A stretch of DNA of 64,000 nucleotides from Rhipicephalus microplus (lineage: Eukaryota; Arthropoda; Arachnida; Ixodida; Ixodidae): positions 5,394,001-5,458,000 of the forward strand of contig NW_027464602.1 of NCBI RefSeq assembly GCF_043290135.1, written 5' to 3'. The first letter of the stretch is position 1; every line of letters starts with the position of its first letter. The translations under genes were made by a program, and so were the position numbers. This document shows, piece by piece, positions 1 to 59,331 of the stretch. The notes below the pieces were generated by a model. The model was given only the letters and a program-made list of their open reading frames with translations, made no database searches and had not been told where the DNA came from.

Positions 1-22
1 CGCAAAGAAAAAAGCAACACAC

Positions 23-2084: not shown

Positions 2085-2158
2085 CACCACCGGGTGGGCT
2101 CGAACCTCCAACCTTTCGGTTAACAGCCGATCGCGCAAGCCAATTGCGCCACGGAGAC
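2085..2158 (-). tRNA. tRNA-Asn(GTT)-like unit downstream of the gypsy remnant
   Basis: Representative of the majority class I. On the minus strand: acceptor GTCTCCG, TG, D stem GCGC/GCGC with loop AATTGGCTT, anticodon stem ATCGG/CCGAA (A27-A43 mismatch, four pairs intact), loop CTGTTAA with anticodon GTT (plus-strand aac at 2122-2124), T stem GGAGG/CCACC with one A-A mismatch, T loop TTCGAGC, 3' acceptor CGGTGGT and discriminator G. The acceptor keeps four Watson-Crick pairs and two wobbles, with a U-U mismatch at 4-69. A T8 run (2068-2075) lies 9 nt downstream. Its 5' flank is interrupted 35 bp upstream, between 2193 and 2194, by a gypsy LTR. Confidence 0.65.
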
Positions 2159-2193
2159 AGTCCTGCTCCACTCTCACCACCATCAGAACATAT

Positions 2194-2360
2194 TGTCACG
2201 ATGAGTCACAAGTACTGGGGGATTTATTGAACAACCGGGTGGCTAGCTCTAGGACGATGCGTCAGTCGGGGCTGGCTCTAGAGCAGAGAAGAACGCGATC
2301 TTCTTCTTTCCTCCAGATTTAGAGCCGCTCTTGCTGCCAACCCACTACGTGCTGGCGGCA
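2194..2360 (-). repeat. 3' LTR of the truncated gypsy element
   Basis: Read on the minus strand it starts TGCCGCC just after a purine-rich tract and ends GTGACA next to array ATAT, giving the usual TG...CA termini and a length of about 167 bp. An AATAAA polyadenylation signal lies on the minus strand at 2223-2228. The outer end (2194) is firm because array sequence resumes there. The inner end (2360) is inferred from the first TG after the polypurine tract and could be off by a few bases. No partner LTR survives. Confidence 0.65.
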
Positions 2361-2374
2361 TTATCCCCCCTTCC
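2361..2374 (-). promoter_or_regulatory. Polypurine tract of the truncated gypsy element
   Basis: Minus strand GGAAGGGGGGATAA lies immediately before the LTR start. This is the expected place for the plus-strand primer of reverse transcription. The intact element has the comparable GGGGGAAA before its 3' LTR. Confidence 0.6.
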
Positions 2375-2589
2375 GAAAAGAAAAAAAAAACAAGTACCAA
2401 AAAGAGGAAAGGAAAGTACATAGCAGCACCGCGATGCTACTACATAGGCACGTGAAAAAAAAATGAAAATTCGGATGAAGTGAAAGTAAAAATTGAAGAG
2501 CGTGCCTACATAAGAAACGTCAATGAACGAGAAAGTAAGTTCACAAAATAAACAAAAAACACACAGAACGCTGTACGGTAAAGGAAAAG
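2375..2589 (-). other. 3' untranslated region of the truncated gypsy element
   Basis: About 215 bp between the integrase stop and the polypurine tract. On the minus strand it is T-rich with homopolymer runs. A hydrophobic open frame crosses it into the LTR, but its composition simply reflects the T-rich DNA and it has no recognisable domain, so I see no gene here. Confidence 0.55.
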
Positions 2590-3466
2590 TTACGAACAAC
2601 GCGCAATAAATGGCTTCATGCGCAACACATGAACGACGTCCGGCATCAGCCGTGTCCTGCTCCGTGCATGGGGTGTTGAGTCCGGAACCACTTCGTAGTT
2701 CACGTCACTGACGCGGCGTAACACTTTATATGGGCCAAAGTACCGGCTCAGCAACTTTTCACTAAGGCCACGGCGGCGGACGGGCGTCCACACCCAAACT
2801 TGATCTCCGGGGCTGAAAACACTTCTCTGTGGCGGGTATTATAGCGTCGTGCGTCTGCCTGCTGTTGCTGGCCGATGTGCAGTCGCGCGAGCTGCCGGGC
2901 TTCCTCGGCACGCTCTGCGAATTCTTCGGCGTCTGTTGCCAACTCGTCTTCGTCCTGACACGGTAGCATTGAGTCTAGCATGGTCTGTACTTCGCGGCCG
3001 TAGAGAAGTCGAAATGGCGTGAATCGCGTGGTCTCTTGCACGGCGGTATTATACGCGAAGGTCATGTAAGGCAAGATCCGGTCCCATGTTTTGTGCTGTA
3101 CGTCGATGTACATTGAGATCATGTCTGCGAGGGTCTTATTCAGTCGTTCAGTAAGTCCGTTGGTTTGCGGGTGGTACGCAGTTGTCCTTCGGTGTCTGAT
3201 GTTGCTCAGTTTGAAAACTTCGTCCGTAAGCTGCGCCGTGAATGCCGTCCCTCTGTCCGTTATTACACTGGAAGGAGCACCGTGTCGTAACACGATGTGG
3301 CGCATGAAAAATTGTGCTACCTCAGAAGCCGTGGCTCGTGGGATCGCCTGGGTTTCAGCGTAGCGTGTCAAATAGTCGGTCGCGACGATCACCCATTTGT
3401 TGCTGTCCGCAGACATAGAAAAAGGCCCGAGAATGTCCATGCCGACTTGGTCGAACGGCGTGCAGG
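2590..3466 (-). pseudogene. Ty3/gypsy integrase fragment, frameshifted
   Basis: Integrase inserts retrotransposon cDNA into the host genome. The fragment opens in the region just before the catalytic core; in-frame residues PFDQVG precede MDILGPF at 3440. The core then runs with all three acidic catalytic residues at canonical spacing: Asp in MDILGPF, Asp in ITDRG (59 residues between), and Glu in HPQTNGLTER (35 residues between). The reading frame is lost near 2815-2825. The C-terminal domain, with the GPY/F-type motif FGPYKVLRRV, continues in another frame to a stop at 2590. That frame change plus loss of everything upstream makes it a pseudogene. The zinc-binding HHCC domain lies beyond the break and is absent. 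Family assignment is secure; activity is excluded. Confidence 0.9.
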
Positions 3467-6400
3467 GCTCGAGCCTCTGACTTTTCGGTTAACAGCCGAT
3501 CGCACTAGCCAATTGCGCCACGGAGACAGTCCTGCTCCGCTCTCACCACCATCAGAACATATCTTCAAAGCTATCAGCCCAAAGAAAAAAACCACCGCAC
3601 CACCACCGGGTGGGCTCGAACCAAAACCTTTCGGTTAACAGCCGATCGCGCTAGCCAATTGCCCCACGGAGACAGTCGTGCTCCACTCTCACCACCATCA
3701 GAACATTTCTTCAGAGCTATCACCCCAAAGAAAAAAAAGTGCCGCACCACCACCGGGTGGGCTCGAACCTCCAACCTTTCGGTTAACAGCCGATCGCGCT
3801 AGCCAATTGCGCCACGAAGACAGTCGTGGTCCACTCTCACCGCCATCAGAACATATCTTCAAAGCTATTACCGCAAAGAAAAAAGCAACACACCACTCCC
3901 GGGAGGCCTCAAAACTCCAACCTTTCGGTTAACAGGCGATCGCGCTAGCCCATTGCGCCACGGAGGCAGTCTTGCTCCACTCTCACCATCATCAGAACAT
4001 ATCTTCAAAGCTATCAGCCTAAAGAAAAAAAAGCGCCGCACCACCACCGGGTGGGCTCGAACCTCCAACTTTTCGGTTAACAGCCGATCACGCTACCCAA
4101 TTGCGCCACGGAGACAGTCCTGCTCCACTCTCACCACCATCAGAACATATCTTCAAAGCTATCAGCCCACAGAAAAAAAGCGCCGCACCACCACCAGGTG
4201 GGCTCGAACCTCCAACCTTTCGGTTAACAGCCGATCGCGCAAGCCAATTGCGCCACAGAGACAGTCCTGCTCCACTCTCACCACCATCAGAACATATCTT
4301 CAAAGCTATCAGCCCAAAGAAAAAAAAGCACCGCACCACAACCGGGTGGGCTCGAACCTCCAACATTTCGGTTAACAGCCAATCGCGCCAGCCAATTGCA
4401 CCACGGAGACAGTCCTGCTCCACTATCACCACCATCAGAACATATCTTCAATACTATCAGCACAAAGAAAAAAAGCGCCCCACCATCACCGGGTGGGCTC
4501 GAACTTCCAACCTTTCTGTTAACAGCCGATCGCGCTAGCCAACTGCGCCACGGAGACAGTCGTGCTCCACTCTCACCACCATCAGAACATATCTTCAAAG
4601 CTATCAGCGCAAAGAAAAAAGCAACACACCACTCCAGGGAGGGCTCGAAACTCCAGCCTTTCGGTTAACAGCCGATCGCGCTAGCCAATTGCGCCACGGA
4701 GACAGTCCTGCTCTACTCTTACCACCATCAGAACATATCTTCAAAGCTATCAGCCCAAAGAAAAAAAACGCCATACCACGACCGGATGGGCTCGAACCTC
4801 CGACCTTTTGGTTAACAGCCGATCGCGCTAGCCAATTGCGCCATGGAGACAGTCCTGCTCCACTCTCACCACCATCAGAACATATCTTCGAAGCTATCAG
4901 CCCCAAAAAAAGCGCCGCACCACCACCGGGTGGGCTCGAACTACCAACTTTTCGGTTAACAGCCGATCACGCTAGCCAATTGCGCCACGGAGACAGTCCT
5001 GCTCCACTCTCACCACCATCAGAACATATCTTCAAAGCTATCAGCCCAAAAAAAAGCGCCACACCACCAGCGGGAGAGCTCGAACCTCCAACTTTTCGGG
5101 TAACAGCCGATCGCGCTAGCCAATTGCGCCACGGAGACAGTCCTGCTCCACTCTCACCACCGTCAGAACATTTCTTCAGAGCTATCAGCCCAAAGAAAAA
5201 AAAAGCGCCGCACCACCACCGGGTGGGCTCGAACCTCCAACCTTTCGGTTAACAGTTGATCGCGCTAGCCAATTGCCCCACGGAGACAGTCGTGCTCCGC
5301 TCTCACCACCGTCAGAACATTTCTTCAGAGCTATCACCCCAAAGAAAAAAAAAGCGCCGCACCACCACCGGTTGGGCTCAAACCTCTAACCTTTCGGTTA
5401 ACAGCCGATCGCGCTAGCCAATTGCGCCACGAAGACAGCCCTGCTCCAGTCCCACCACAATCAGAACATAATTTCAAAGGTATTACCGCAAAGAAAAAAG
5501 CAACACACCACTCCCGGGAGGGCTCGAACCTCCAAACTTTCGGTTAACAGCCGATCGCGCTAGCCAATTGCGCCACGGAGACAGTCGTGCTCCACTCTCA
5601 CCACCATCAGAACATATCTTCAAAGCTATCAGCGCAAAGAAAAAAGCAAAACACCACTCCCGGGAGGGCTCGAACCTCCAACGTTTCGGTTAACAGCCGA
5701 TCGCGCTGGCCAATTGCGCCACGCAGACAGTCCTGCTCCACTCTCACCACAATTAGAACATATCTTCAGAGCTATCACCACAAAGAAAAAAGAAGCGCCG
5801 CACCACCACCGGGTGGGCTCGAACCTCCAACCTTTCGGTTAACAGCCGATCACGCTAGCCAATTGCGCCACGGAGACAGTCCTGCTCCACTCTCACCACC
5901 ATCAGAACATATCTTCAAAGCTATCAGCCCACAGAAAAAAAAGCGCCGCACAACCACCGGGTGGGCTCGAACCTCCAAATTTTCGGTTAACAGCCGATCG
6001 CGCTAGCCAATTTCGCCACCGAGACAGTCGTGCTCCACTCTCACCACCATCAGAACATATCTTCAAAGCTATCAGCGCAAAGAAAAAAGCAAAACACCAC
6101 TCCCGGGAGGGCTCGAAACTCCAACCTTTCGGTCAACAGCCGATCGCGCTAGCCCATTGCGCCACGGAGACAGTCTTGCCCCCCTCTCACCACCATCAGA
6201 ACATATCTTCAAAGCTATCAGCCCAAAGAAAAAAAAGCACCGCACCACCACCGGGTGGGCTCGAACCTCCAACCTTTCGGTTAACAGCCGATCGCGCTAG
6301 CCAATTTTGCCACGGAGACAGTCGTGCTCCACTCTCACCACCATCAGAACATATCTTCAAAGCTATCAGCGCAAAGAAAAAAGCAAAACACCACTCCCGG

Positions 6401-9400
6401 GAGGGCTCGAACCTCCAACTTTTCGGTTAACAGCCGATCGCGCTGGCCAATTGCGCCACGCAGACAGTCCTGCTCCACTCTCACCACCATCAGAACATAA
6501 TTTCAAAGCTATTACCGCAAAGAAAAAAGCAACACACCTCTCCCGGGAAGGCTCGAAACTCCAAACTTTCGAATAACAGCCGATCGCGCTAGCCAATTGC
6601 GCCACGTAGACAGTCGTGCTCCACTCTCACCACCATCAGAACATATCTTCAAAGCTATCAGCGCAAAGAAAAAAGCAAAACACCACTCCCGGGAGGGCTC
6701 GAACCTCCAACGTTTCGGTTAACAGCCGATCGCGCTGGCCAATTGCGCCACGCAGACAGTCCTGCTCCACTCTCACCACAATTAGAACATATCTTCAGAG
6801 CTATCACCACAAAGAAAAAAGAAGCGCCGCACCACCACCGGGTGGGCTCGAACCTCCAACCTTTCGATTAACAGCCGATCGCGCTAGCCAATTGCCCCAC
6901 GGAGACAGTCGTGCTCCACTCTCACCACCGTCAGAACATTTCTTCAGAGCTATCACCCCGAAGAAAAAAAAGTGCCGCACCACCACCGGTTGGGCTCGAA
7001 CCTCCAACCTTTCGGTTAACAGCCGATTGCGCTAGCCAATTGCGCCACGAAGACAGTCCTGCTCCACGCTCACCACCATCAGAACATATCTTCAAAGCTA
7101 TTACCGCAAAGAAAAAAGCAACACTTCACTCCCGGGAGGGCTCAAAACTCTAACGTTTCGGTTAACAGCCGATCGCGCTAGCCCAATGCGCCACGGAGGC
7201 AGTCTTGCTCCACTCTCACCATCATCAGAACATATCTTCAAAGCTGTCAGCGCAAAGAAAAAAAAGCGCTGCACCACCACTGGGTGGGCTCGAACCTCCA
7301 ACCTTTCGGTTAACAGCCGATCGCGCTAGCCCATTGCGCCACAAAGACAGTCTTGCTCCACTCTCACCACCATCAGAACATAACTTCAAAGCTATCAGCG
7401 CAAAGAAAAAAGCAACACACCACTCCCGGGAGGGCTCGAAACCCCAACCTTTCGGTCAAAAGCCGATCGCGCTAGCCCATTGCGCCACGCAGGCAGTCTT
7501 GCTCCACTCTCACCATCATCAGAACATATCTTCAAAGCTATCAGCCCAAAGAAAAAAAAGCGCCATACCACCACCGGGTGGGCTCGAACCTCCGACCTTT
7601 TGGTTAACAGCCGATCATGCTAGCCAATTGCGCCACGGAGACAGTCCTGCTCCCTCTCACCACCATCAGAAGATATCTTCAAAGCTATCAGCCCAAAGAA
7701 AAAAACCACCGCACCACCACCGGGTGGGCTCGAACCTCCAACCTTTCGGTTAACAGCCAATTGCGCTAGCCAGTTGCGCCACGGAGACAGTCCTGCTCCA
7801 CTCTCACCACCATCAGAACATATCTTCAAAGCTATCAGCACAAAGAAAAAAAGCGCCGCAACACCACCGGGTGGGCTCAAACCTCCAACCTTTCGGTTAA
7901 CAGCCCACCGCGCTAGCCAACTGCGCCACGGAGACAGTCGTGCTCCACTCTCACCACCATCAGAACATAACTTCAAAGCTATCAGCGCAAAGAAAAAAGC
8001 AACACACCACCACCGGGAGAGCTCGAACCTCCAACTTTTCGGGTAACAGCCGATCGCGCTAGCCAATTGCGCCACAGAGACAGTCCTGCTCCACTCTCAC
8101 CACCGTCAGAACATTTCTTCAGAGCTATCAGCCCAAAGAAAAAAAAAGCGCCGCACCACCACCGGGTGGGCTCGAACCTCCAAACTTTCGGTTAACAGTT
8201 GATCGCGCTAGCCAATTGCCCCACGGAGACAGTCGTGCTCCACTCTCACCACCGTCAGAACATTTCTTCAGAGCTATCACCCCAAAGAAAAAAAAAGCTC
8301 CGCACCACCACCGGTTGGGCTCAAACCTCTAACCTTTCGGTTAACAGCCGATCGCGCTAGCCAATTGCGCCACGAAGACAGCCCTGCTCCAGTCCCACCA
8401 CCATCAGAACATAATTTCAAAGGTATTACCGCAATGAAAAAACAACACACCACTGCCGGGAGGGCTCGAACGTCCAAACTTTCGGTTAACAGCCGATCGC
8501 GCTAGCCAATTGCGCCACGGAGACAGTCGTGCTCCACTCTCACCACCATCAGAACATATCTTCAAAGCTATCAGCGCAAAGAAAAAAGCAAAACACCACT
8601 CCCGGGAGGGCTCGAACCTCCAAATTTTCGGTTAACAGCCGATCGCGCTGGCCAATTGCGCCACGCAGAAAGTCCTGCTCCACTCTCACCACAATTAGAA
8701 CATATCTTCAGAGCTATCACCACAAAGAAAAAAAAGCGCCGCACCACCACCGGGTGGGCTCGAACCTCCAACCTTTCGGTTAACAGCCGATCGCGCTAGC
8801 CAATTGCCCCACAGAGACAGTCGTGCTCCACTCTCACCACCGTCAGAACATTTCTTCAGAGCTATCACCCCAAAGAAAAAAAAGTGCCGCACCACCACTG
8901 GTTGGGCTCGAACCTCCAACCTTTCGGTTAACAGCCGATCGCGCTAGCCAATTGCGCCCCGAAGACAGTCCTGCTCCACGCTCACCACCATCAGAACATA
9001 TCTTCAAAGCTATTACCACAAAGAAAAAAGCAACACACCACTCCCGGGAGGGCTCGAAACTCCAACCTTTCGGTTAACAGCAGATCGCGCTAGCCAATTG
9101 CTCCATGGAGACAATCGTGCTCCACTCTCACCACCATCAGAACATATCTTCAAAGCTATCAGCGCAAAGAAAAAAAAGTGCCGCACCACCACCGGGTGGG
9201 CTCGAACCTCCAACCTTTCGGTTAACAGCCGATCGCGCAAGCCGATTGCGCCACGGAGACAGTCCTGCTCCACTCTCACCACCATCAGAACATTACTTCA
9301 AAGGTATCAGCCCAAAAAAAAAAGCGCCGCACCGCCACTGGGTGGGCTCGAACCTCTGACTTTTCGGTTAACAGCCGATCATGCTAGCCAATTGCGCCAC

Positions 9401-9886
9401 GGAGACAGTCCTGCTCCCTCTCACCACCATCAGAAGATATCTTCAAAGCTATCAGCCCAAAGAAAAAAACCACCGCACCACCACCGGGTGGGCTCGAACC
9501 TCCAACCTTTCGGTTAACAGCCAATTGCGCTAGCCAGTTGCGCCACGGAGACAGTCCTGCTCCATCTCACCACCATCAGAACATATCTTCAAAGCTATCA
9601 GCACAAAGAAAAAAAGCGCCGCAACACCACCGGGTGGGCTCAAACCTCCAACCTTTCGGTTAACAGCCCACCGCGCTAGTCAACTGCGCCACGGAGACAG
9701 TCGTGCTCCACTCTCACCACCATCAGAACATATCTTCAAAGCTATCAGCGCAAAGAAAAAAGCAACACACCACCACCGGGAGAGCTCGAACCTCCAACTT
9801 TTCGGGTAACAGCCGATCGCGCTAGCCAATTGCGCCACAGAGACAGTCCTGCTCCACTCTCACCACCGTCAGAACATTTCTTCAGA

Positions 9887-11948
9887 GCTATCAGCCCAAA
9901 GAAAAAAAAAGCGCCGCACCACCACCGGGTGGGCTCGAACCTCCAAACTTTCGGTTAACAGTTGATCGCGCTAGCCAATTGCCCCACGGAGACAGTCGTG
10001 CTCCACTCTCACCACCGTCAGAACATTTCTTCAGAGCTATCACCCCAAAGAAAAAAAAAGCTCCGCACCACCACCGGTTGGGCTCAAACCTCTAACCTTT
10101 CGGTTAACAGCCGATCGCGCTAGCCAATTGCGCCACGAAGACAGCCCTGCTCCAGTCCCACCACCATCAGAACATAATTTCAAAGGTATTACCGCAAAGA
10201 AAAAACAACACACCACTGCCGGGAGGGCTCGAACCTCCAAACTTTCGGTTAACAGCCGATCGCGCTAGCCAATTGCGCCACGGAGACAGTCGTGCTCCAC
10301 TCTCACCACCATCAGAACATATCTTCAAAGCTATCAGCGCAAAGAAAAAAGCCAAACACCACTCCCGGGAGGGCTCGAACCTCCAACTTTTCGGTTAACA
10401 GCCGATCGCGCTGGCCAATTGCGCCACGCAGAAAGTCCTGCTCCACTCTCACCACAATTAGAACATATCTTCAGAGCTATCACCACAAAGAAAAAAAAGC
10501 GCCGCACCACCACCGGGTGGGCTCGAACCTCCAACCTTTCGGTTAACAGCCGATCGCGCTAACCAATTGCCCCACGAAGACAGTCGTGCTCCACTCTCAC
10601 CACCGTCAGAACATTTCTTCAGAGCTATCACCCCAAAGAAAAAAAAGTGCCGCACCACCACTGGTTGGGCTCGAACCTCCAACCTTTCGGTTAACAGCCG
10701 ATCGCGCTAGCCAATTGCGCCCCGAAGACAGTCCTGCTCCGCGCTCACCACCATCAGAACATATCTTCAAAGCTATTACCACAAAGAAAAAAGCAACACT
10801 TCACTCCCGGGAGGGCTCAAAACTCCAACCTTTCGGTTGACAGCCGATCGCGCTAGCCCATTGCGCCACGCAGAAAGTCCTGCTCCACTCTCACCACAAT
10901 TAGAACATATCTTCAGAGCTATCACCACAAAGAAAAAAAAGCGCCGCACCACCACCGGGTGGGCTCGAACCTCCAACCTTTCGGTTAACAGCCGATCGCG
11001 CTAGCCAATTGCCCCACGGAGACAGTCGTGCTCCACTCTCACCACCGTCAGAACATTTCTTCAGAGCTATCACCCCAAAGAAAAAAAAGTGCCGCACCAC
11101 CACTGGTTGGGCTCGAACCTCCAACCTTTCGGTTAACAGCCGATCGCGCTAGCCAATTGCGCCCCGAAGACAGTCCTGCTCCACGCTCACCACCATCAGA
11201 ACATATCTTCAAAGCTATTACCACAAAGAAAAAAGCAACACTTCACTCCCGGGAGGGCTCAAAACTCCAACCTTTCGGTTGACAGCCGATCGCGCTAGCC
11301 CATTGCGCCACGGAGGCAGTCTTGCTCCACTCTCACCATCATCAGAACATATCTTCAAAGCTATCAGCGCAAAGAAAAAAAAGCGCTGCACCACCACTGG
11401 GTGGGCTCGAACCTCCAACCTTTCGGTTAACAGCCGATCGCGCTAGCCCATTGCGCCACAGAGACAGTCTTGCTCCACTCTCACCACCATCAGAACATAT
11501 CTTCAAAGCTATCAGCGCAAAGAAAAAAGCAACACACCACTCGCGGGAGGGCTCGAAACTCCAACCTTTCGGTTAACAGCAGATCGCGCTAGCCAATTGC
11601 TCCATGGAGACAATCGTGCTCCACTCTCACCACCATCAGAACATATCTTCAAAGCTATCAGCGCAAAGAAAAAAAAGTGCCGCACCACCACCGGGTGGGC
11701 TCGAACCTCCAACCTTTCCGTTAACAGCCGATCGCGCAAGCCGATTGCGCCACCGAGACAGTCCTGCTCCACTCTCACCACCATCAGAACATTACTTCAA
11801 AGGTATCAGCCCAAAGAAAAAAAAGCGCCGCACCGCCACTGGGTGGGCTCGAACCTCTGACTTTTCGGTTAACAGCCGATCATGCTAGCCAATTGCGCCA
11901 CGGAGACAGTCCTGCTCCCTCTCACCACCATCAGAAGATATCTTCAAA
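9887..11948. repeat. 2,062-bp higher-order repeat, copy 1
   Basis: Fourteen units whose order of variants is repeated directly next door at 11949-14010 with a constant shift of 2,062 bp. Diagnostic shared variants include the bases cagttgatcgcg (near 9960 and 12022), the cagaaagtcc leader and a gccccgaagac acceptor. Boundaries were placed where the flanking variants stop matching (agagctatcag versus aaagctatcag) and are good to a few tens of bases. Confidence 0.75.
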
Positions 11949-14010: not shown

Positions 14011-14596
14011 GCTATCAGCCCAAAGAAAAAAACCACCGCACCACCACCGGGTGGGCTCGAACCTCCAACCTTTCGGTTAACAGCCAATTGCGCTAGCCAG
14101 TTGCGCCACGGAGACAGTCCTGCTCCACTCTCACCACCATCAGAACATATCTTCAAAGCTATCAGCACAAAGAAAAAAAGCGCCGCAACACCACCGGGTG
14201 GGCTCAAACCTCCAACCTTTCGGTTAACAGCCCACCGCGCTAGCCAACTGCGCCACCGAGACAGTCCTGCTCCACTCTCACCACCATCAGAACATTACTT
14301 CAAAGGTATCAGCCCAAAGAAAAAAAAGCGCCGCACCGCCACTGGGTGGGCTCGAACCTCTGACTTTTCGGTTAACAGCCGATCATGCTAGCCAATTGCG
14401 CCACGGAGACAGTCCTGCTCCCTCTCACCACCATCAGAAGATATCTTCAAAGCTATCAGCGCAAAGAAAAAAGCAACACACCACCACCGGGAGAGCTCGA
14501 ACCTCCAACTTTTCGGGTAACAGCCGATCGCGCTAGCCAATTGCGCCACAGAGACAGTCCTGCTCCACTCTCACCACCGTCAGAACATTTCTTCAG

Positions 14597-20651: not shown

Positions 20652-20724
20652 CACCACCGGGTGGGCTCGAACCAAAACCTTTCGGTTCACAGCCGATCGC
20701 GCTAGCCAATTGCGCCACGAAGAC
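20652..20724 (-). tRNA. tRNA-like unit with anticodon changed to GTG (His-type)
   Basis: 73-nt unit in which the anticodon loop is CTGTGAA instead of CTGTTAA (plus-strand cac at 20688-20690), a one-base change that would read as His. It also lacks one base in the T-stem/variable region (plus strand gctcgaaccaaaacc), so the T stem cannot form normally. The same unit recurs near 24798, 29948, 40392 and 47598. It is a degenerate tRNA-Asn derivative, not a true tRNA-His, because the rest of the body is that of the Asn unit. Confidence 0.5.
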
Positions 20725-22487: not shown

Positions 22488-25286
22488 AGTCGTGCTCCAC
22501 TCTCACCACCATCAGAACATATCTTCAAGGCTATCAGCGCAAAGAAAAAAGCAACACACCACTCCCGGGAGGGCTCGAGTCTCCAACCTTTCGGTTAACA
22601 GCCGATCGCGCTAGCATATTGCGCCACGGAGACAGTCCTGCTCTACTCTCACCACCCTCAGAACATATCTTCAAAGCTATCAGCCCAAAGAAAAAAAAGC
22701 GCCGCACCACCGCCGGGTGGGCTCGAAACTCCAACCTTTCGGTCAACAGCCGATCGCGCTAGCCAATTGCGCCACGGAGACAGTCCTGCTCCACTCTCAC
22801 CACCATCAGAACATAACTTCAAAGCTATCAGTCCAAAGAAAAAAAAGCGCCATACCACCACAGGGTGGGCTCGAACCTCCGACCTTTTGGTTAACAGCCG
22901 ATCGCGCTAGCCAATTGCGCCACGGAGACAGTCCTGCTCCACTCTCACCACCATCAGAACATATCTTCAAAGCTATCAGCGCAAAGAAAAAAAGCGCCGC
23001 ACCACCACCGGGTGGGCTCGAACCTCCAACCTTTCGGTTAAGAGCCGATCGCGCTAGCCAACTGCGCCACGGAGACAGTCGTGCTCCACTCTCACCACCA
23101 TCAGAACATATCTTCAAGGCTATCAGCGCAAAGAAAAAAGCAACACACCACTCCCGGGAGGGCTCGAACCTCCAACTTTTCGGTTAACAGCCGATCACGC
23201 TAGCCAATTGCGCCACGGAGACAGTCCTGCTCCACTCTCACCACCATCAGAACATATCTTCAAAGCTATCAGCCCACAGAAAAAAAAGCGCCACACCACC
23301 ACCGGGAGAGCTCGAACCTCCAACTTTTCGGGTAACAGCCGATCGCGCTAGCCATTTGCGCCACGGAGACAGTGCTGCTCCACTCTCACCACCGTCAGAT
23401 TATTTCTTCAGAGCTATCAGCCCAAAAAAAAGCGCCGCACCACCACCGGGTGGGCTCGAACCTCCAACCCTTTGGTTAACAGCCGATCGCGCTAGCCAAT
23501 TGCCCCACGGAGACAGTCGTGCTCCACTCTCACCACCGTCAGAACATTTCTTCAGAGCTATCACCCCAAAGAAAAAAAAAGCGCCGCACCACCACCGGGT
23601 GGGCTTGAACCTCCAACCTTTCGGTTAACAGCAGATCGCGCTAGCCAATTGCTCCATGGAGACAATCGTGCTCCACTCTCACCACCATCAGAACATATCT
23701 TCAAAGCTATCAGCGCAAAGAAAAAAAAGCGCCGCACCACCACCGGGTGGGCTCGAACCTCCAACCTTTCGGTTAACAGCCGATCGCGCAAGCCAATTGC
23801 GCCACGGAGACAGTCCTGCTCCACTCTCACCACCATCAGAACATATCTTCAAAGGTATCAGCCCAAAGAAAAAAAGCGCCGCACCACCACTGGGTGGGCT
23901 CGAACCTCTGACTTTTCGGTTAACAGCCGATCATGCTAGCCAATTGCACCACGGAGACAGTCCTGCTCCCTCTCATCACCATCAGAACATATCTTCAAAG
24001 CTATCAGCCCAAAGAAAAAAACCACCGCACCACCACCAGGTGGGCTCGAACCTCCAACCTTTCTGTTAACAGCCAATCGCGCTAGCCAATTGCGCCACGG
24101 AGACAGTCCTGCTCCACTCTCACCACCATCAGAACATATCTTCAAAGCTATCAGCACAAAGAAAAAAGCAACACACCACTCCCGGGAGGGCTCGAAACTC
24201 CAACCTTTCGGTCAAAAGCCGATCGCGCTAGCTCATTGCGCCACGCAGGCAGTCTTGCTCTACTCTCACCATCATCAGAACATATCTTCAAAGCTATCAG
24301 CCCAAAGAAAAAAAAGCGCCATACCACCACCGGGTGGGCTCGAACCTCCGACCTTTTGGTTAACAGCAGATCGCGCTAGCCAATTGCTCCATGGAGACAA
24401 TCGTGCTCCACTCTCACCACCATCAGAACATATCTTCAAAGCTATCAGCGCAAAGAAAAAAAGCGCCGCACCACCACCGGGTGGGCTCGAACCTCCAACC
24501 TTTCGGTTAACAGCCGATCACGCAAGCCAATTGCGCCACGGAGACAGTCCTGCTCCACTCTCACCACCATCAGTACATATCTTCAAAGGTATCAGCCCAA
24601 AGAAAAAAAAGCGCCGCACCACCACTGGGTGGGCTCGAACCACTGACTTTTCGGTTAACAGCCGATCGCGCTAGCCAATCGCGCCACGGAGACAGTCCTG
24701 CTCCTTCTCACCACCATCAGAACATATCTTCAAAGCTATCAGCCCAAAGAAAAAAACCACCGCACCACCACCGGGTGGGCTCGAACCAAAACCTTTCGGT
24801 TCACAGCCGATCGCGCTAGCCAATTGCCCCACGGAGACAGTCGTGCTCCACTCTCACCACCATCAGAACATTTCTTCAGAGCTATCACCCCAAAGAAAAA
24901 AAAAGTGCCGCACCACCACCGGGTGGGCTCGAACCTCCAACCTTTCGGTTAACAGCCGATCGCGCTAGCCAATTGCGCCACGAAGACAGTCCTGGTCCAC
25001 TCTCACCACCATCAGAACATATCTTCAAAGCTATTACCGCAAAGAAAAAAGCAACACACCACTCCCGGGAGGGCTCAAAACTCCAACCTTTCGGTTAACA
25101 GGCGATCGCGCTAGCCCATTGCGCCACGGAGGCAGTCTTGCTCCACTCTCACCATCATCAGAACATATCTTCAAAGCTATCAGCCCAAAGAAAAAAAAGC
25201 GCCGCACCACCACCGGGTGGGCTCGAACCTCCAACTTTTAGGTTAACAGCCGATCACGCTAGCCAATTGCGCCACGGAGACAGTCC

Positions 25287-43800: not shown

Positions 43801-46176
43801 TGGCCAATTGCGCCACGCAGACAGTCCTGCTCCACTCTCACCACCATCAGAACATAATTTCAAAGCTATTACCGCAAAGAAAAAAGCAACACACCACTCC
43901 CGGGAGGGCTCGAAACTCCAAACTTTCGATTAACAGCCGATCGCGATAGCCAATTGCGCCACGGAGACAGTCGTGCTCCACTCTCACCACCATCAGAACA
44001 TATCTTCAAAGCTATCAGCGCAAAGAAAAAAGCAAAACACCACTCCCGGGACGGCTCGAACCTCCAACTTTTCGGTTAACAGCCGATCGCGCAGGCCAAT
44101 TGCGCCACGCAGACAGTCCTGCTCCACTCTCACCCCCATCAGAACATAATTTCAAAGCTATTACCGCAAAGAAAAAAGCAACACACCACTCCCGGGAGGG
44201 CTCGAAACTCCAAACTTTCGATTAACAGCCGATCGCGCTAGCCCATTGCGCCACGGAGGCAGTCTTGCTCCACTCTCACCATCATCAGAACATATCTTCA
44301 AAGCTATCAGCGCAAAGAAAAAAAAGCGCTGCACCACCACTGGGTGGGCTCGAACCTCTAACCTTTCGGTTAACAGCCGATCGCGCTAGCCCATTGCGCC
44401 ACAAAGACAGTCTTGCTCCACTCTCACCACCATCAGAACATAACTTCAAAGCTATCAGCGCAAAGAAAAAAGCAACACACCACTCCCGGGAGGGCTCGAA
44501 ACTCCAACCTTTCGGTCAAAAGCCGATCGCGCTAGCCCATTGCGCCACAAAGACAGTCTTGCTCCACTCTCACCACCATCAGAACATAACTTCAAAGCTA
44601 TCAGCACAAAGAAAATAGCAACACACCACTCCCGGGAGGGCTCGAAACTCCAACCTTTCGGTCAAAAGCCGATCGCGCTAGCTCATTGCGCCACGCAGGC
44701 AGTCTTGCTCCACTCTCACCATCATCAGAACATATCTTCAAAGCTATCAGCCCAAAGAAAAAAAAGCGCCATACCACCACCGGGTGGGCTCGAACCTCCG
44801 ACCTTTTGGTTAACAGCAGATCGCGCTAGCCAATTGCTCCATGGAGACAATCGTGCTCCACTCTCACCACCATCAGAACATATCTTCAAAGCTATCAGCG
44901 CAAAGAAAAAAAGCGCCGCACCACCAGCGGGTGGGCTCGAACCTCCAACCTTTCGGTTAACAGCCGATCGCGCAAGCCAATTGCGCCACGGAGACAGTCC
45001 TGCTCCACTCTCACCACCATCAGTACATATCTTCAAAGGTATCAGCCCAAAGAAAAAAAAGCGCCGCACCACCACTGGGTGGGCTCGAACCTCTGACTTT
45101 TCGGTTAACAGCCGATCGCGCTAGCCAATCGCGCCACGGAGACAGTCCTGCTCCCTCTCACCACCATCAGAACATATCTTCAAAGCTATCAGCCCAAAGA
45201 AAAAAAAGTGCCGCACCACCACCGGGTGGGCTCGAACCTCCAACCTTTCGGTTAACAGCCGATCGCGCTAGCCAATTGCGCCACGAAGACAGTCTTGGTC
45301 CACTCTCACCACCATCAGAACATATCTTCAAAGCTATTACCGCAAAGAAAAAAGCAACACACCACTCCCGGGAGGGCTCAAAACTCCAACCTTTCGGTTA
45401 ACAGGCGATCGCGCTAGCCCATTGCGCCACGGAGGCAGTCTTGCTCCACTCTCACCATCATCAGAACATATCTTCAAAGCTATCAGCCCAAAGAAAAAAA
45501 AGCGCCATACCACCACAGGGTGGGCTCGAACCTCCGACCTTTCGGTTAACAGCCGATCACGCTAGCCAATTGCGCCACGAAGACAGTCCTGCTCCGCTCT
45601 CACCACCATCAGAACATATCTTCAAAGCTATCAGCCCACAGAAAAAAAGCGCCGCACAACCACCGGGTAGGCTCGAACCTCCAACTTTTCGGTTAACAGC
45701 CGATCACGCTAGCCAATTGCGCCACGGAGACAGTCCTGCTCCACTCTCACCACCATCAGAACATATCTTCAAAGCTATCAGCCCACAGAAAAAAAAGCGC
45801 CGCACAACCACCGGGTGGGCTCGAACCTCCAAATGTTCGGTTAACAGCCGACCGCGCTAGCCAATTGCGCCACAGAGACAGTCGTGCTCCACTCTCACCA
45901 CCATCAGAACATATCTTCAAAGCTATCAGCGCAAAGAAAAAAGCAAAACACCACTCCCGGGAGGGCTTGAACCTCCAACTTTTCGGTTAACAGCCGATCG
46001 CGCTGGCCAATTGCGCCACGCAGACAGTCCTGCTCCACTCTCACCCCCATCAGAACATAATTTCAAAGCTATTACCGCAAAGAAAAAAGCAACACACCAC
46101 TCCCGGGAGGGCTCAAAACTCCAAACTTTCGATTAACAGCCGATCGCGCTAGCCCATTGCGCCACGGAGGCAGTCT
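40882..46176. repeat. 5,295-bp higher-order repeat B2 (second half of 10,445-bp copy B)
   Basis: Matches A2 at +10,445 bp, including the extra unit near 44520-44660 and the rare gatcgcgatagcc variant (33500 and 43943). The match ends at 46222, where atcagcgcaaag replaces atcagcccacag. Rare private differences include gcaccgccaccggg near 42864 and gcaccccaccatc near 40943 (the latter at the end of B1). Confidence 0.85.
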
Positions 46177-49100
46177 TGCTCCACTCTCACCATCATCAGA
46201 ACATATCTTCAAAGCTATCAGCGCAAAGAAAAAAAAGCGCTGCACCACCACTGGGTGGGCTCGAACCTCCAACCTTTCGGTTAACAGCCGATCGCGCTAG
46301 CCCACTGCGCCACAAAGACAGTCTTGCTCCACTCTCACCACCATCAGAACATAACTTTAAAGCTATCAGCGCAAAGAAAAAAGCAACACACCACTCCCGG
46401 GAGGGCTCGAAACTCCAACCTTTCGGTCAAAAGCCGATCGCGCTAGCTCATTGCGCCACAAAGACAGTCTTGCTCCACTCTCACCACCATCAGAACATAA
46501 CTTCAAAGCTATCAGCACAAAGAAAAAAGCAACACACCACTCCCGGGAGGGCTCGAAACTCCAACCTTTCGGTCAAAAGCCGATCGCGCTAGCTCATTGC
46601 GCCACGCAGGCAGTCTTGCTCCACTCTCACCATCATCAGAACATATCTTCAAAGCTATCAGCCCAAAGAATAAAAGCGCCATACCACCACCGGGTGGGCT
46701 CGAACCTCCGACCTTTTGGTTAACAGCAGATCGCGCTAGCCAATTGCTCCATGGAGACAATCGTGCTCCACTCTCACCACCATCAGAACATATCTTCAAA
46801 GCTATCAGCGCAAAGAAAAAAAGCGCCGCACCACCAGCGGGTGGGCTCGAACCTCCAACCATTCGGTTAACAGCCGATCGCGCAAGCCAATTGCGCCACG
46901 GAGACAGTCCTGCTCCACTCTCACCACCATCAGAACATAACTTCAAAGCTATCAGCGCAAAGAAAAAAGCAACACACCACTCCCGGGAGGGCTCGAAACT
47001 CCAACCTTTCGGTCAAAAGCCGATCGCGCTAGCCCATTGCGCCACAAAGACAGTCTTGCTCCACTCTCACCACCATCAGAACATAACTTCAAAGCTATCA
47101 GCACAAAGAAAAAAGCAACACACCACTCCCGGGAGGGCTCGAAACTCCAACCTTTCGGTCAAAAGCCGATCGCGCTAGCTCATTGCGCCACGCAGGCAGT
47201 CTTGCTCCACTCTCACCATCATCAGAACATATCTTCAAAGCTATCAGCCCAAAGAAAAAAAAGCGCCATACCACCACCGGGTGGGCTCGAACCTCCGACC
47301 TTTTGGTTAACAGCAGATCGCGCAAGCCAATTGCGCCACGGAGACAGTCCTGCTCCACTCTCACCACCATCAGTACATATCTTCAAAGGTATCAGTCCAA
47401 AGAAAAAAAAGCGCCGCACCACCACTGGGTGGGCTCGAACCTCTGACTTTTCGGTTAACAGCCGATCGCGCTAGCCAATCGCGCCACGGAGACAGTCCTG
47501 CTCCTTCTCACCACCATCAGAACATATCTTCAAAGCTATCAGCCCAAAGAAAAAAACCACCGCACCACCACCGGGTGGGCTCGAACCAAAACCTTTCGGT
47601 TCACAGCCGATCGCGCTAGCCAATTGCCCCACGGAGACAGTCGTGCTCCACTCTCACCACCATCAGAACATTTCTTCAGAGCTATCACCCCAAAGAAAAA
47701 AAAGTGCCGCACCACCACCGGGTGGGCTCGAACCTCCAACCTTTCGGTTAACAGCCGATCGCGCTAGCCAATTGCGCCACGAAGACAGTCCTGGTCCACT
47801 GTCACCACCATCAGAACATATCTTCAAAGTTATTACCGCAAAGAAAAAAGCAACACACCACTCCCGGGAGGGCTCAAAACTCCAACATTTCGGTTAACAG
47901 GCGATCGCGCTAGCCCATTGCGCCACGGAGGCAGTCTTGCTCCACTCTCACCATCATCAGAACATATCTTCAAAGCTATCAGCCCAAAGAAAAAAAAGCG
48001 CCGCACCACCACCGGGTGGGCTCGAACCTCCAACTTTTTGGTTAACAGCCGATCACGCTAGCCAATTGCGCCACGGAGACAGTCCTGCTCCACTCTCACC
48101 ATCATCAGAACATATCTTCAAAGCTATCAGCCCACAGAAAAAAAAGCGCCCCACCATCACCGGGTGGGCTCGAACTTCCAACCTTTCGGTTAACAGCCGA
48201 TTGCGCTAGCCAACTGCGCCACGGAGACAGTCGTGCTCCACTCTCACCACCATCAGAACATATCTTCAAAGCTATCAGCGCAAAGAAAAAAGCAACACAC
48301 CACTCCAGGGAGGGCTCGAAACTCCAACCTTTCGGTTACCAGCCGATCGCGCTAGCCAATTGCGCCACGGAGACAGTCCTGCTCTACTCTCACCACCATC
48401 AGAACATATCTTCAAAGCTATCAGCCCAAAGAAAAAAAAGCGCTATACCACCACCGGGTGGGCTCGAACCTCCGACCTTTTGGTTAACAGCCGATCGCGC
48501 TAGCCAATTGCGCCATGGAGACAGTCCTGCTCCAATCTCACCACCATGAGAACATATCTTCGAAGCTATCAGCCCAAAAAAAAAGCGCCGCACCACCACC
48601 GGGTGGGCTTGAACTACCAACTTTTCGGTTAACAGCCGATCACGCTAGCCAATTGCGCCACGGAGACAGTCCTGCTTCACTCTCACCACCATCAGAACAT
48701 ATCTTCAAAGCTATCAGCCCAAAGAAAAAAAAAGCGCCACACCACCACCGGGAGAGCTCGAACCTCCAACTTTTCGGGTAACAGCCGATCGCGCTAGCCA
48801 ATTGCGCCACGGAGATAGTCCTGCTCCACTCTCACCACCATCAGAACATATCTTCAAAGGTATCAGCCCAAAGAAAAAAAAGCGCCGCACCACCACTGGG
48901 TGGGCTCGAACCTCTGACTTTTCGGTTAACAGCCGATCATGCTAGCCAATTGCACCACGGAGACAGTCCTGCTCCCTCTCACCACCATCAGAACATATCT
49001 TCAAAGCTATCAGCCCAAAGAAAAAAACCACCGCACCACCACCAGGTGGGCTCGAACCTCCAACCTTTCTGTTAACAGCCAATCGCGCTAGCCAATTGCG

Positions 49101-49284
49101 CCACGGAGACCGTCCTGCTCCACTCTCACCACCATAAGAACATATCTTCAAAGCTATCAGCACAAAGAAAAAAAAGCGCCGCACCACCACCGGGTGGGCT
49201 CAAACCTCCAACCTTTCGGTTAACAGCCGATCGCGCTAGCCAACTGCGCCACGGAGACAGTCGTGCTCCACTCTCACCACCATC

Positions 49285-50711
49285 AGAACATATCTTCAAA
49301 GCTATCAGCGCAAAGAAAAAAGCAACACACCACTCCCGGGAGGGCTCGAGTGTCCAACCTTTCGGTTAACAGCCGATCGCGCTAACATATTGCGCCACGG
49401 AGACAGTCCTGCTCTACTCTCCCCACCCTCAGAACATATCTTCAAAGCTATCAGCCCAAAGAAAAAAAAGCGCCGCACCACCGCCGGGTGGGCTCGAAAC
49501 TCCAACCTTTCGGTCAACAGCCGATCGCGCTAGCCAATTGCGCCACGGAGACAGTCCTGCTCCACTCTCACCACCATCAGAACATATCTTCAAAGCTATC
49601 AGTCCAAAGAAAAAAAAGCGCCATACCACCACAGGGTGGGCTCGAACCTCCGACCTTTTGGTTAACAGCCGATCGCGCTAGCCAATTGCGCCACGGAGAT
49701 AGTCCTGCTCCACTCTCACCACCATCAGAACATATCTTCAAAGCTATCAGCGCAAAGTAAAAAAGCGCCGCACCACCACCGGGTGGGCTCGAACCTCCAA
49801 CTTTTCGGTTAACAGCCGATCACGCTAGCCAATTGCGCCACGAAGACAGTCCTGCTCCGCTCTCACCACCATCAGAACATATCTTCAAAGCTATCAGCCC
49901 ACAGAAAAAAAGCGCCGCACAACCACCGGGTAGGCTCGAACCTCCAACTTTTCGGTTAACAGCCGATCACGCTAGCCAATTGCGCCACGGAGACAGTCCT
50001 GCTCCACTCTCACCACCATCAGAACATATCTTCAAAGCTATCAGCCCACAGAAAAAAAAGCGCCGCACAACCACCGGGTGGGCTCGAACCTCCAAATTTT
50101 CGGTTAACAGCCGATCGCGCTAGCCAATTGCGCCACAGAGACAGTCGTGCTCCACTCTCACCACCATCAGAACATATCTTCAAAGCTATCAGCGCAAAGA
50201 AAAGCGCAAAACACCACTCCCGGGAGGGCTCGAAACTCCAACCTTTCGGTCAACAGCCGATCGCGCTAGCCCATTGCGCCACGGAGACAGTCTTGCCCCC
50301 CTCTCACCACCATCAGAACATATCTTCAAAGCTATCAGCCCAAAGCAAAAAAGCACCGCACCACCACCGGATGGGCTCGAACCTCCAACCTTTCGGTTAA
50401 CAGTCGATCGCGCTAGCCAATTTCGCCACGGAGACAGTCGTGCTCCACTCTCACCACCATCAGAACATATCTTCAAAGCTATCAGCGCAAAGAAAAAAGC
50501 AAAACACCACTCCCGGGAGGGCTCGAACCTCCAACTTTTCGGTTAACAGCCGATCGCGCTGGCCAATTGCGCCACGCAGACAGTACTGCTCCACTCTCAC
50601 CACCATCAGAACATAATTTCAAAGCTATTACCGCAAAGAAAAAAGCAACACACCACTCCCGGGAGGGCTCGAAACTCCAAACTTTCGATTAACAGCCGAT
50701 CGCGCTAGCCA
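49285..50711. repeat. Higher-order duplication with 2,940-bp shift, copy 1
   Basis: About 1.43 kb matching 52225-53651 at a constant shift of 2,940 bp (20 units). Shared rare variants include gcaaagtaaaaaagcgcc (A-run interrupted by T, ~49752 and ~52692), ggagatagtcctgc and ctctccccaccctc. The match ends where ccatttgcgcc (50709) meets ccaattgcgcc (53649). Confidence 0.7.
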
Positions 50712-52224
50712 TTTGCGCCACGGAGACAGTGCTGCTCCACTCTCACCACCGTCAGAACATTTCTTCAGAGCTATCAGCCCAAAAAAAAGCGCCGCACCAC
50801 CACCGGGTGGGCTCGAACCTCCAACCTTTCGGTTAACAGCCGATCGCGCTAGCCAATTGCCCCACGGAGACAGTCGTGCTCCACTCTCACCACCGTCAGA
50901 ACATTTCTTCAGAGCTATCACCCCAAAGAAAAAAAAAGCGCCGCACCACCACCGGGTGGGCTCGAACCTCCAACCTTTCGGTTAACAGCAAATCGCGCTA
51001 GCCAATTGCTCCATGGAGACAATCGTGCTCCACTCTCACCACCATCAGAACATATCTTCGAAGCTATCAGCGCAAAGAAAAAAAAGCGCCGCACCACCAC
51101 CGGGTGGGCTCGAACCTCCAACCTTTCGGTTAACAGCCCATCGCGCAAGCCAATTGCGCCACGGAGACAGTCCTGCTCCACTCTCACCACCATCAGAACA
51201 TATCTTCAAAGGTATCAGCCCAAAGAAAAAAAAGCGCCGCACCACCACTGGGTGGGCTCGAACCTCTGACTTTTCGGTTAACAGCCGATCATCCTAGCCA
51301 ATTGCACCACGGAGACAGTCCTGCTCCCTTCACCACCATCAGAACATATCTTCAAAGCTATCAGCCCAAAGAAAAAAACCACCGCACCACCACCAGGTCG
51401 GCTCGAACCTCCAACCTTTATGTTAACAGCCAATCGCGCTAGCCAATTGCGCCACGGAGACAGTCCTGCTCCACTCTCACCACCATAAGAACATATCTTC
51501 AAAGCTATCAGCACAAAGAAAAAAAAGCGCCGCACCACCACCGGGTGGGCTCAAACCTCCAACCTTTCGGTTAACAGCCGATCGCGCTAGCCAACTGCGC
51601 CACGGAGACAGTCGTGCTCCACTCTCACCACCATCAGAACATATCTTCAAAGCTATCAGCGCAAAGAAAAAAGCAACACACCACTCCCGGGAGGGCTCGC
51701 GTGTCCAACCTTTCGGTTAACAGCCGATCGCGCTAACATATTGCGCCACGGAGACAGTCCTGCTCTACTCTCACCACCCTCAGAACATATCTTCAAAGCT
51801 ATCAGCCCAAAGAAAAAAAAGCGCCGCACCACCGCCGGGTGGGCTCGAAACTCCAACCTTTCGGTCAACAGCCGATCGCGCTAGCCAATTGCGCCACGGA
51901 GACAGTCCTGCTCCACTCTCACCACCATCAGAACATATCTTCAAAGCTATCAGTCCAAAGAAAAAAAAGCGCCATACCACAACAGGGTGGGCTCGAACCT
52001 CCGACCTTTTGGTTAACAGCCGATCGCGCTAGCCAATTGCGCCACGGAGACAGTCCTGCTCCACTCTCACCACCATCAGAACATATCTTCAAAGCTATCA
52101 GCGCAAAGAAAAAAAGCGCCGCACCACCACCGGGTGGGCTCGAACCTCCAACTTTTCGGTTAACAGCCGATCACGCTAGCCAATTGCGCCACGAAGACAG
52201 TCCTGCTCCGCTCTCACCACCATC

Positions 52225-53651
52225 AGAACATATCTTCAAAGCTATCAGCGCAAAGAAAAAAGCAACACACCACTCCCGGGAGGGCTCGAGTGTCCAACCT
52301 TTCGGTTAACAGCCGATCGCGCTAACATATTGCGCCACGGAGACAGTCCTGCTCTACTCTCCCCACCCTCAGAACATATCTTCAAAGCTATCAGCCCAAA
52401 GAAAAAAAAGCGCCGCACCACCGCCGGGTGGGCTCGAAACTCCAACCTTTCGGTCAACAGCCGATCGCGCTAGCCAATTGCGCCACGGAGACAGTCCTGC
52501 TCCACTCTCACCACCATCAGAACATATCTTCAAAGCTATCAGTCCAAAGAAAAAAAAGCGCCATACCACCACAGGGTGGGCTCGAACCTCCGACCTTTTG
52601 GTTAACAGCCGATCGCGCTAGCCAATTGCGCCACGGAGATAGTCCTGCTCCACTCTCACCACCATCAGAACATATCTTCAAAGCTATCAGCGCAAAGTAA
52701 AAAAGCGCCGCACCACCACCGGGTGGGCTCGAACCTCCAACTTTTCGGTTAACAGCCGATCACGCTAGCCAATTGCGCCACGAAGACAGTCCTGCTCCGC
52801 TCTCACCACCATCAGAACATATCTTCAAAGCTATCAGCCCACAGAAAAAAAGCGCCGCACAACCACCGGGTAGGCTCGAACCTCCAACTTTTCGGTTAAC
52901 AGCCGATCACGCTAGCCAATTGCGCCACGGAGACAGTCCTGCTCCACTCTCACCACCATCAGAACATATCTTCAAAGCTATCAGCCCACAGAAAAAAAAG
53001 CGCCGCACAACCACCGGGTGGGCTCGAACCTCCAAATTTTCGGTTAACAGCCGATCGCGCTAGCCAATTGCGCCACAGAGACAGTCGTGCTCCACTCTCA
53101 CCACCATCAGAACATATCTTCAAAGCTATCAGCGCAAAGAAAAACGCAAAACACCACTCCCGGGAGGGCTCGAAACTCCAACCTTTCGGTCAACAGCCGA
53201 TCGCGCTAGCCCATTGCGCCACGGAGACAGTCTTGCCCCCCTCTCACCACCATCAGAACATATCTTCAAAGCTATCAGCCCAAAGAAAAAAAGCACCGCA
53301 CCACCACCGGATGGGCTCGAACCTCCAACCTTTCGGTTAACAGTCGATCGCGCTAGCCAATTTCGCCACGGAGACAGTCGTGCTCCACTCTCACCACCAT
53401 CAGAACATATCTTCAAAGCTATCAGCGCAAAGAAAAAAGCAAAACACCACTCCCGGGAGGGCTCGAACCTCCAACTTTTCGGTTAACAGCCGATCGCGCT
53501 GGCCAATTGCGCCACGCAGACAGTACTGCTCCACTCTCACCACCATCAGAACATAATTTCAAAGCTATTACCGCAAAGAAAAAAGCAACACACCACTCCC
53601 GGGAGGGCTCGAAACTCCAAACTTTCGATTAACAGCCGATCGCGCTAGCCA
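52225..53651. repeat. Higher-order duplication with 2,940-bp shift, copy 2
   Basis: Second copy of 49285-50711. A further related stretch lies right of the intact gypsy element: 50.7-52.2 kb matches 59.87-61.4 kb at a shift of ~9,157 bp, and 53.1-53.6 kb matches 61.69-62.2 kb at 8,560 bp. The array on both sides of that insertion therefore belongs to the same family of blocks. Confidence 0.7.
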
Positions 53652-54035
53652 ATTGCGCCACGGAGACAGTCGTGCTCCACTCTTACGACCATCAGAACAT
53701 ATCTTCAAAGCTATCAGCGCAAAGAAAAAAGCAAAACACCACTCCCGGGAGGGCTCGAACCTCCAACTTTTCGGTTAACAGCCGATCGCGCTGGCCAATT
53801 GCGCCACGCAGACAGTCCTGCTCCACTCTCACCACCATCAGAACATAATTTCAAAGCTATCAGCCCAAAGAAAAAAAAGCGCCGCACCACCACCGGGTGG
53901 GCTCGAACCTCCAACTTTTAGGTTAACAGCCGATCACGCTAGCCAATTGCGCCACGGAGAGAGTCCTGCTCCACTCTCACCATCATCAGAACATATCTTC
54001 AAAGCTATCAGCCCACAGAAAAAAAAGCGCCCCAC

Positions 54036-54109
54036 CATCACCGGGTGGGCTCGAACTTCCAAACTTTCGGTTAACAGCCGATCGCGCTAGCCAACTGCGC
54101 CACGGAGAC
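54036..54109 (-). tRNA. tRNA-Asn(GTT)-like unit just downstream of the intact gypsy insertion
   Basis: Minus strand: acceptor GTCTCCG with 3' strand CGGTGAT (five Watson-Crick pairs, one wobble, one U-U mismatch, a better acceptor than most units). The A box is TGGCGCAGTTGG, D stem GCGC/GCGC and anticodon loop CTGTTAA. The T stem is poor (GGAAG against CCACC). A T8 run (54019-54026) lies 9 nt past the 3' end. The 5' flank is intact for 35 bp, up to the ATAT target at 54141-54144, where the gypsy LTR begins. Confidence 0.6.
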
Positions 54110-54140
54110 AGTCGTGCTCCACTCTCACCACCATCAGAAC

Positions 54141-54144
54141 ATAT
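54141..54144. repeat. Target site duplication (ATAT), left
   Basis: ATAT directly before the 5' LTR, repeated directly after the 3' LTR at 59328-59331. The uninterrupted repeat unit contains a single acatatcttc at this point, as at 48231-48300, so the duplication is 4 bp. This is the length expected of a Ty3/gypsy integrase. Confidence 0.9.
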
Positions 54145-54281
54145 TGACACACCTCGATGGGCGCATGAAGAGGAAGAGGGGGAAGCGGTCTGGCTCACGA
54201 GCAGCTCGGTCGCCGGTTTTCTGGCTCTGAGCTGTACCGATCTCAACCATTTCCTGTAAATAAACGCGTTCCTTCGTCACA
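54145..54281 (+). repeat. 5' LTR (137 bp)
   Basis: Starts TGACACACC and ends TTCGTCACA, giving TG...CA termini. Base for base it matches the 3' LTR at 59191-59327 as far as I can read. An AATAAA signal lies at 54259-54264, 17 bp before the end. At 137 bp it is short for a gypsy element, where several hundred bases is usual. I see no convincing TATA box, so initiation would probably rely on an initiator/downstream element; this is inference. Confidence 0.95.
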
Positions 54282-59327: not shown

Positions 59328-59331
59328 ATAT
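59328..59331. repeat. Target site duplication (ATAT), right
   Basis: ATAT after the 3' LTR. Array sequence then resumes with cttcaaagctatcagcgc, exactly continuing the unit interrupted at 54144. Confidence 0.9.

Follow-up and report, generated by a model that had tools for sequence, protein, structure and literature searches.

The 64,000-nucleotide stretch of the Rhipicephalus microplus genome analyzed here (henceforth the window; positions 5,394,001 to 5,458,000 of contig NW_027464602.1, assembly GCF_043290135.1) poses the question of how two different Ty3/gypsy retrotransposons came to join a satellite array at the same nucleotide of its repeat unit and, consequently, at the same distance from the transfer RNA (tRNA)-like sequence held in that unit. 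One of these, a truncated minus-strand remnant, defines what we call family A, and the other, an intact plus-strand element, defines family B. The explanation that we favor, with a probability of roughly 0.92, is sequence-specific integration at ATAT, which accounts for the shared register without any tRNA-guided targeting: as each unit of the satellite has a single ATAT, both the register and the distance to the tRNA-like part are fixed. The tempting claim of a metazoan case of tRNA-directed gypsy integration is thereby removed and is replaced by a measured rule, namely the presence of ATAT at 74/79 intact long terminal repeat (LTR) ends of the two families.

A tandem array of ~148-bp units (392 anchors; the commonest spacings are 148, 146 and 147 bp) fills most of the window; it spans positions 1..2193, continues from 3468 to 54144 and resumes at 59332..64000. 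Within its units is a minus-strand sequence resembling tRNA-Asn: ARAGORN makes 199 tRNA calls in the window, mostly of tRNA-Asn, and five units within 53400-54144 score 29.5-44.3 bits as tRNA in Rfam. In the satellite consensus, for which 97 of 385 units were used, ATAT occurs just once, in the context aaCATATCtt, and is placed 32-35 bp ahead of the tRNA-like part on its upstream side. Across the array as a whole there are 319 ATAT sites, ~310 of which are in one register and 9 in another. Both insertions use this site. The junctions at 2193/2194 (where the inverted remnant has its 3' LTR end, the target ATAT being at 2190..2193) and at 54144/54145 (the start of the 5' LTR of the plus-strand element) read ...catcagaacATAT followed by TG. 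In the case of the plus-strand element, 35 bp (54110-54144) separate the LTR from the minus-strand tRNA-like unit that Rfam places at 54036..54109 with 42.0 bits; on the side of the remnant, the ARAGORN call stops at 2159 and the base equivalent to the first one in Rfam is 2158, again giving 35 bp. Re-reading these junctions thus bears out the original prediction, made on this DNA from its letters alone, that both LTR boundaries follow cagaacATAT at 35 bp from a tRNA-like 5' end (2158 and 54109).

The LTRs of the plus-strand element are identical, 137 bp each (54145..54281 and 59191..59327), and have ATAT on either side (54141..54144 and 59328..59331), i.e., a 4-bp target duplication. The remnant retains a single LTR end, and the satellite resumes in the middle of a unit near 3468. 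The families A and B are distinct but related: their LTRs differ, and over 216 amino acids their integrase pieces share 53% identity. Together with their opposite orientations, this upholds the proposal that the two insertions are independent, and their shared ancestry is rejected on the same grounds. Without any preference, the chance of two events falling in one register is ~1 in 148; given that ~310 of the 319 array ATATs are in a single register, a requirement for ATAT makes the coincidence an expected one.

This requirement can be followed in copies of the two families throughout the assembly, for which 3.26 Gb in 1202 contigs (at least 11 of them over 100 Mb) were searched. The family A query ended at the last LTR base and was thus free of flank bias, and the family B query started at the first LTR base; in each case the best-scoring 40 copies were read, out of 1747 first-look candidates for A and 522 candidates for B, so that the 40 of family B are not a random draw, copies of 99% identity having tied ranks there. 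Twenty-four of the B loci came from among the 30 of an earlier search whose query carried 15 bp of flank, which biases it toward ATAT and satellite and whose ranking was left unused; the same places occur in the unbiased list, and the other 16 were read anew. Among these best-scoring copies, ATAT is present at most insertions of both families: it adjoins 36/39 intact LTR ends of family A, with ATAC, AAAT and GTAT occurring once each (the fortieth copy, L041, has lost its LTR end), and 38/40 flanks of family B, with one ATAC and one GTAT. Eight of the 40 B flanks end in six AT repeats. For comparison, the density of ATAT in chromosome samples is 5.65 per kb. Outside the satellite, which is where 67 of the 80 copies reside, G follows ATAT in 12/30 unique flanks of family A vs 40/228 random ATATs (Fisher p 0.007); in these counts three copies sharing one flank (L051, L052 and L057) were taken once, and two with similar rather than identical flanks (L049 and L085) were kept apart. 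Hence, of the two mechanisms between which the original prediction did not choose, the choice of ATAT-type sites is the one that the copies strongly support.

The ATAT of the satellite has received many more insertions than the two in the window. The exact string CATCAGAACATATTG, which joins the satellite ATAT to a following TG, has 332 matches genome-wide, as against 4 for the reversed control. We read 40 such junctions, drawn from the first 100 places listed and with the TG demanded by the pattern itself: two of them are mutated satellite (L179 and L180), and 38 lead into non-satellite LTR-like sequence. Of the latter, 37 fall in 26 sequence clusters, whereas L216 shares its first 15 bases with L202. 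As the two ends of one family may cluster apart, these 26 kinds correspond to at least ~13 families. A start of the form TGNNRCG, resembling the inverted end of family A, is seen in 29/40 junctions, and this start and the adjoining ATAT suggest that the junction sequences are LTR ends. The same base has hence been reused by many LTR-like kinds. In L216, a 27-bp TG..CA footprint is lodged between copies of ATAT, after which the sequence goes back to satellite; it could be what is left of an LTR after internal deletion or recombination.

Units with ATAA in place of ATAT offer a counterpart to these junctions. Sites reading CATCAGAACATAA, the ATAA variant of the target site, make up 44/314 in the window vs 258 with ATAT; their share at other loci is 4/194, composed of 3/104 in a set that leans to ATAT, being partly loci chosen for their ATAT junctions, and 1/90 in a set without that bias. 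This disparity marks the array in the window as locally divergent. The corresponding junction string, CATCAGAACATAATG, has 4 matches (backward control 6), one at 77 Mb of contig C4 and three on C10, none of which is near the 100 listed junction places. If position were all that counted, the number of ATAA junctions to be expected would be ~57 by the ratio in the window or ~8 by the ratio elsewhere; the result favors a sequence requirement, the test being modest at the lower expectation. Interruptions of other kinds do not generally share the register, in a small sample in which one comes close. Twenty 1.5-kb stretches sampled in clusters of the array (L217-L236) yielded four satellite edges, with two more stretches being without satellite, and three of the edges, approximate as they come from BLAST coverage, are at clearly other registers: L219 in a T run, L222 inside the tRNA-like part and L225 near its 3' end. 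Two of the four interruptions (L219, L220, L222 and L225) carry simple-repeat tails like those of non-LTR elements.

We therefore envisage a group of tick Ty3/gypsy integrases that would join LTR DNA to the target at ATAT with a 4-bp duplication, with a weaker leaning to C before and G after the ATAT (CATATG-like). With each consensus unit offering one such site upstream of its tRNA-like part, any member of the group entering the array would be led to one and the same base whatever its orientation, and a constant spacing from the tRNA-like sequence would simply follow. The specificity for ATAT probably lies in the integrase rather than in a host factor, and the LTR-like kinds other than A and B are likely to share it.

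Several observations weigh against this account. Only 3 of the 38 sampled junctions match a studied family, all of them A, and none match B. The ATAA units, while common in the window, are rare elsewhere, so that the ~8 expected events are to be set against 4 matches that are string counts only. The remaining satellite edge in the sample above belongs to L220, an interruption that carries a tail of TGAAA repeats, and is no more than a few bases away from the ATAT site. The leaning to a preceding C is weak in family B, where it is seen in 7/29 flanks vs 31/228 random ATATs (p 0.09). Finally, family B is found in the satellite in modest excess, with at most 7 independent copies of 38 vs the ~3.8% expected from random points (binomial p 0.0005; Fisher p 0.04 vs 5/90 random points), and the supply of ATAT alone leaves this excess unaccounted for, although the B query is itself an array copy.

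The estimates behind this last point are as follows. Random points fall in satellite in 1/59 cases on large contigs and 4/31 on unplaced ones (L096, L135, L141, L155 and L159 in all), and weighting by size gives ~3.8%. Of the two samples, the unplaced one is rough, with ten points at one fixed coordinate, estimated contig weights and sampling up to C59. The tRNA-Asn-derived satellite, with its unit of nucleosome length, would hence make up ~3.8% of the tick genome by this rough sample. The satellite holds 4/40 copies of family A (L031, which is the copy in the window, L032, L033 and L055) and 9/40 of family B, the latter in both orientations. Two pairs of the B copies (L005/L006 and L169/L170) have identical 700-bp flanks, which shows amplification of inserted copies and leaves at most 7 independent ones of 38. 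Plain ATAT is equally dense in the array and in the chromosome samples (5.53 vs 5.65 per kb); in contrast, C-ATAT is ~7 times denser in the array (5.41 vs 0.77), and counting only such half-sites the predicted satellite share is 10.7%.

These figures bear on the alternative that survives best, in which the choice of ATAT is combined with a secondary bias for the satellite, arising from the open linker of phased 148-bp nucleosomes, Pol III (RNA polymerase III) occupancy, weak selection against insertions in the satellite or the copying of inserted units as the array is amplified. We consider it possible, if on the doubtful side: the family B excess and the amplification evident from the identical 700-bp flanks of L005/L006 and L169/L170 are in its favor, whereas the share of family A is not clearly above 3.8% (binomial p 0.06, Fisher p 0.46) and fits the 10.7% expected from C-ATAT. 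The B excess itself is unproven, with an array copy as the query and amplification visible, and chromatin or Pol III may have a minor part in it. The description of the satellite as a landing pad accordingly stands in the literal sense, with 332 exact junctions, but loses force as a statement of preference, with family A fitting the supply of C-ATAT and family B exceeding expectation only modestly. A more far-reaching version, in which many tick gypsy families are strictly ATAT-specific, Pol III factors or phased nucleosomes expose the ATAT and the multi-megabase satellite serves as a preferred and harmless sink, strikes us as improbable.

Still less probable is guidance by Pol III, i.e., TFIIIB/TFIIIC bound to the tRNA-like unit tethering the integrase at a fixed distance, in the manner of Ty3 or DGLT-A, and we regard this as very unlikely. 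The satellite ATAT, at 32-35 bp upstream of the tRNA-like unit, does lie just past the 13-33 bp window described for DGLT-A (PMC5006619), and the modest excess of family B in the satellite would also be in keeping with it. Against this, the insertions of Ty3, and those of DGLT-A on average, are placed ~12-15 bp upstream of mature tRNAs (PMC5006619; PMC5911963). More tellingly, when the distance to tRNA-like sequences was examined for the copies of A and B genome-wide, there was no enrichment at -35: 0/67 non-satellite copies (36 A and 31 B, truncated and shared-flank copies included) are at this position by ARAGORN on flanks of 1.5 kb, 700 bp or ~300 bp, in which degenerate units can be missed. 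A tRNA-like sequence occurs anywhere within the scanned stretch for just 4/67, and 2/20 random 1.5-kb samples also have one. The distances in these four cases are dissimilar: L034 has a tRNA-Thr-like sequence ~162 bp past its 3' end; L017 has one several hundred bp off; L045, a family A copy in another satellite with a period of 295 bp, is ~172 bp upstream of a tRNA-Asp-like unit; and L056 is 32 bp downstream of a tRNA-Val-like sequence. Nor are intact tRNA-like neighbors over-represented at the satellite junctions, with ARAGORN accepting 19/40 of them vs 199/392 in the array (p 0.74). The ATAA variant, with its 4 matches away from the listed clusters, points in the same direction. Guidance by Pol III is thus rejected as the cause of the register: the copies read are in the main dispersed ATAT insertions without enrichment at -35, an outcome that the original prediction had itself named as refuting it. 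As for a register shared by chance or through array duplication of one event, the likelihood is negligible: duplication of inserted units does occur (L005/L006), yet the families and orientations differ and at least 26 LTR-like kinds use the same register among 40 junctions, on which ground chance too is rejected.

Sequence-specific integration at ATAT has precedents among known elements. Clades of the gypsy superfamily in Drosophila have palindromic target motifs; those of the Idefix clade (297, Quasimodo and Transpac) choose ATAT flanked by C and G, with a weaker form of this in the 412 clade (PMC3276498). The tick elements resemble the Idefix clade in the 4-bp duplication (seen here in the plus-strand element) and the palindromic ATAT core, with a CATATG leaning that may be akin to its C and G flanks, and they differ in that a satellite supplies one site per unit, used by many LTR-like kinds. 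A further parallel is offered by Drosophila 297, which inserts in the TATA box of the histone H3 genes (on which our literature search found nothing). There, too, a sequence-specific gypsy element uses a single AT site near the promoter in a tandem repeat; the differences are that a Pol II gene is the target and that a single element is involved. The Ixodes scapularis Ty3/gypsy lineages Mag, CsRn1, Squirrel and Toxo likewise have 4-bp duplications, and share with the tick elements studied here gag and pol open reading frames (ORFs), a CCHC gag and TG..CA LTRs, whereas the section of PMC4748124 that deals with them states no ATAT specificity. Ty3 and DGLT-A are comparable in that they, too, belong to Ty3/gypsy and sit at a set position on the upstream side of a tRNA sequence, but theirs is a distance kept from tRNA genes generally, while the 32-35 bp of A and B is set by ATAT and is not seen at other tRNA-like sequences. 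Judging from their insertion sites, A and B work like the ATAT-specific elements of Drosophila and fail those defining features of tRNA-directed elements that were tested: they keep no fixed distance from Pol III genes (0/67 at -35), and their position depends on base sequence (74/79 ends at ATAT; 4 ATAA matches vs 332).

The remaining interest lies in how widely the ATAT rule holds among the gypsy families of ticks. A review confines such specificity to the errantiviruses and the two-ORF elements derived from them (PMC5408687); if the tick families lie outside the errantiviruses, strict choice of ATAT would be wider than stated there. With hundreds of insertions at one known base, the array amounts to a natural assay of ATAT choice, the satellite acting as a recorder with one site per unit.

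As regards the elements themselves, the family A remnant (2194..3467, minus strand, truncated and with an approximate end) comprises the inverted 3' LTR end and two portions of the integrase, namely its C-terminal domain and part of its core (Integrase_p58_C, SH3_Tf2-1 and rve). The family B element has, on the plus strand, a gag ORF (54399..55649) with Retrotrans_gag and zinc knuckle domains and a pol ORF (55703..59155) with reverse transcriptase, RNase H and integrase, which were found in two pieces scanned separately. Its gag piece matches two Rhipicephalus microplus proteins, P0005 (92% identity over 52% of the piece) and P0007 (98% over 47%), a similarity that points to a hard tick of the genus Rhipicephalus as the host. 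No plus-strand ORF of at least 60 amino acids lies wholly inside the 35-bp gap between the pol ORF and the 3' LTR. Some errantivirus derivatives are without env.

The satellite forms multi-megabase clusters, for example at 5-10 Mb of contig C2 and near the end of C3. An exact 38-base pattern from it has 0 matches in viral and prokaryote contigs, and literature searches on tick tRNA-derived satellites, Rhipicephalus satellites, satellite insertion hot spots and tRNA-derived satellites with gypsy elements returned nothing on it; it may correspond to the 149-bp R. microplus repeat RMR-1, on which no paper was found either. Within 20651-47639 of the window, ARAGORN finds tRNA-His-like variants at 24765, 29915 and 40360, i.e., 5150 and then 10445 bp apart, a spacing that hints at higher-order repeats of large size within the array. 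The other satellite, into which the family A copy L045 is inserted (L045:1-1501), is a second tRNA-derived one: its tRNA-Asp-like units recur with the period of 295 bp, about twice the length of the tRNA-Asn unit. Lastly, a sequence like tRNA-Thr(CGT) is met at several places of the genome (L034, L017 and L064), in the first two cases alongside (AT)n, and is perhaps a short interspersed element or another small repeat.

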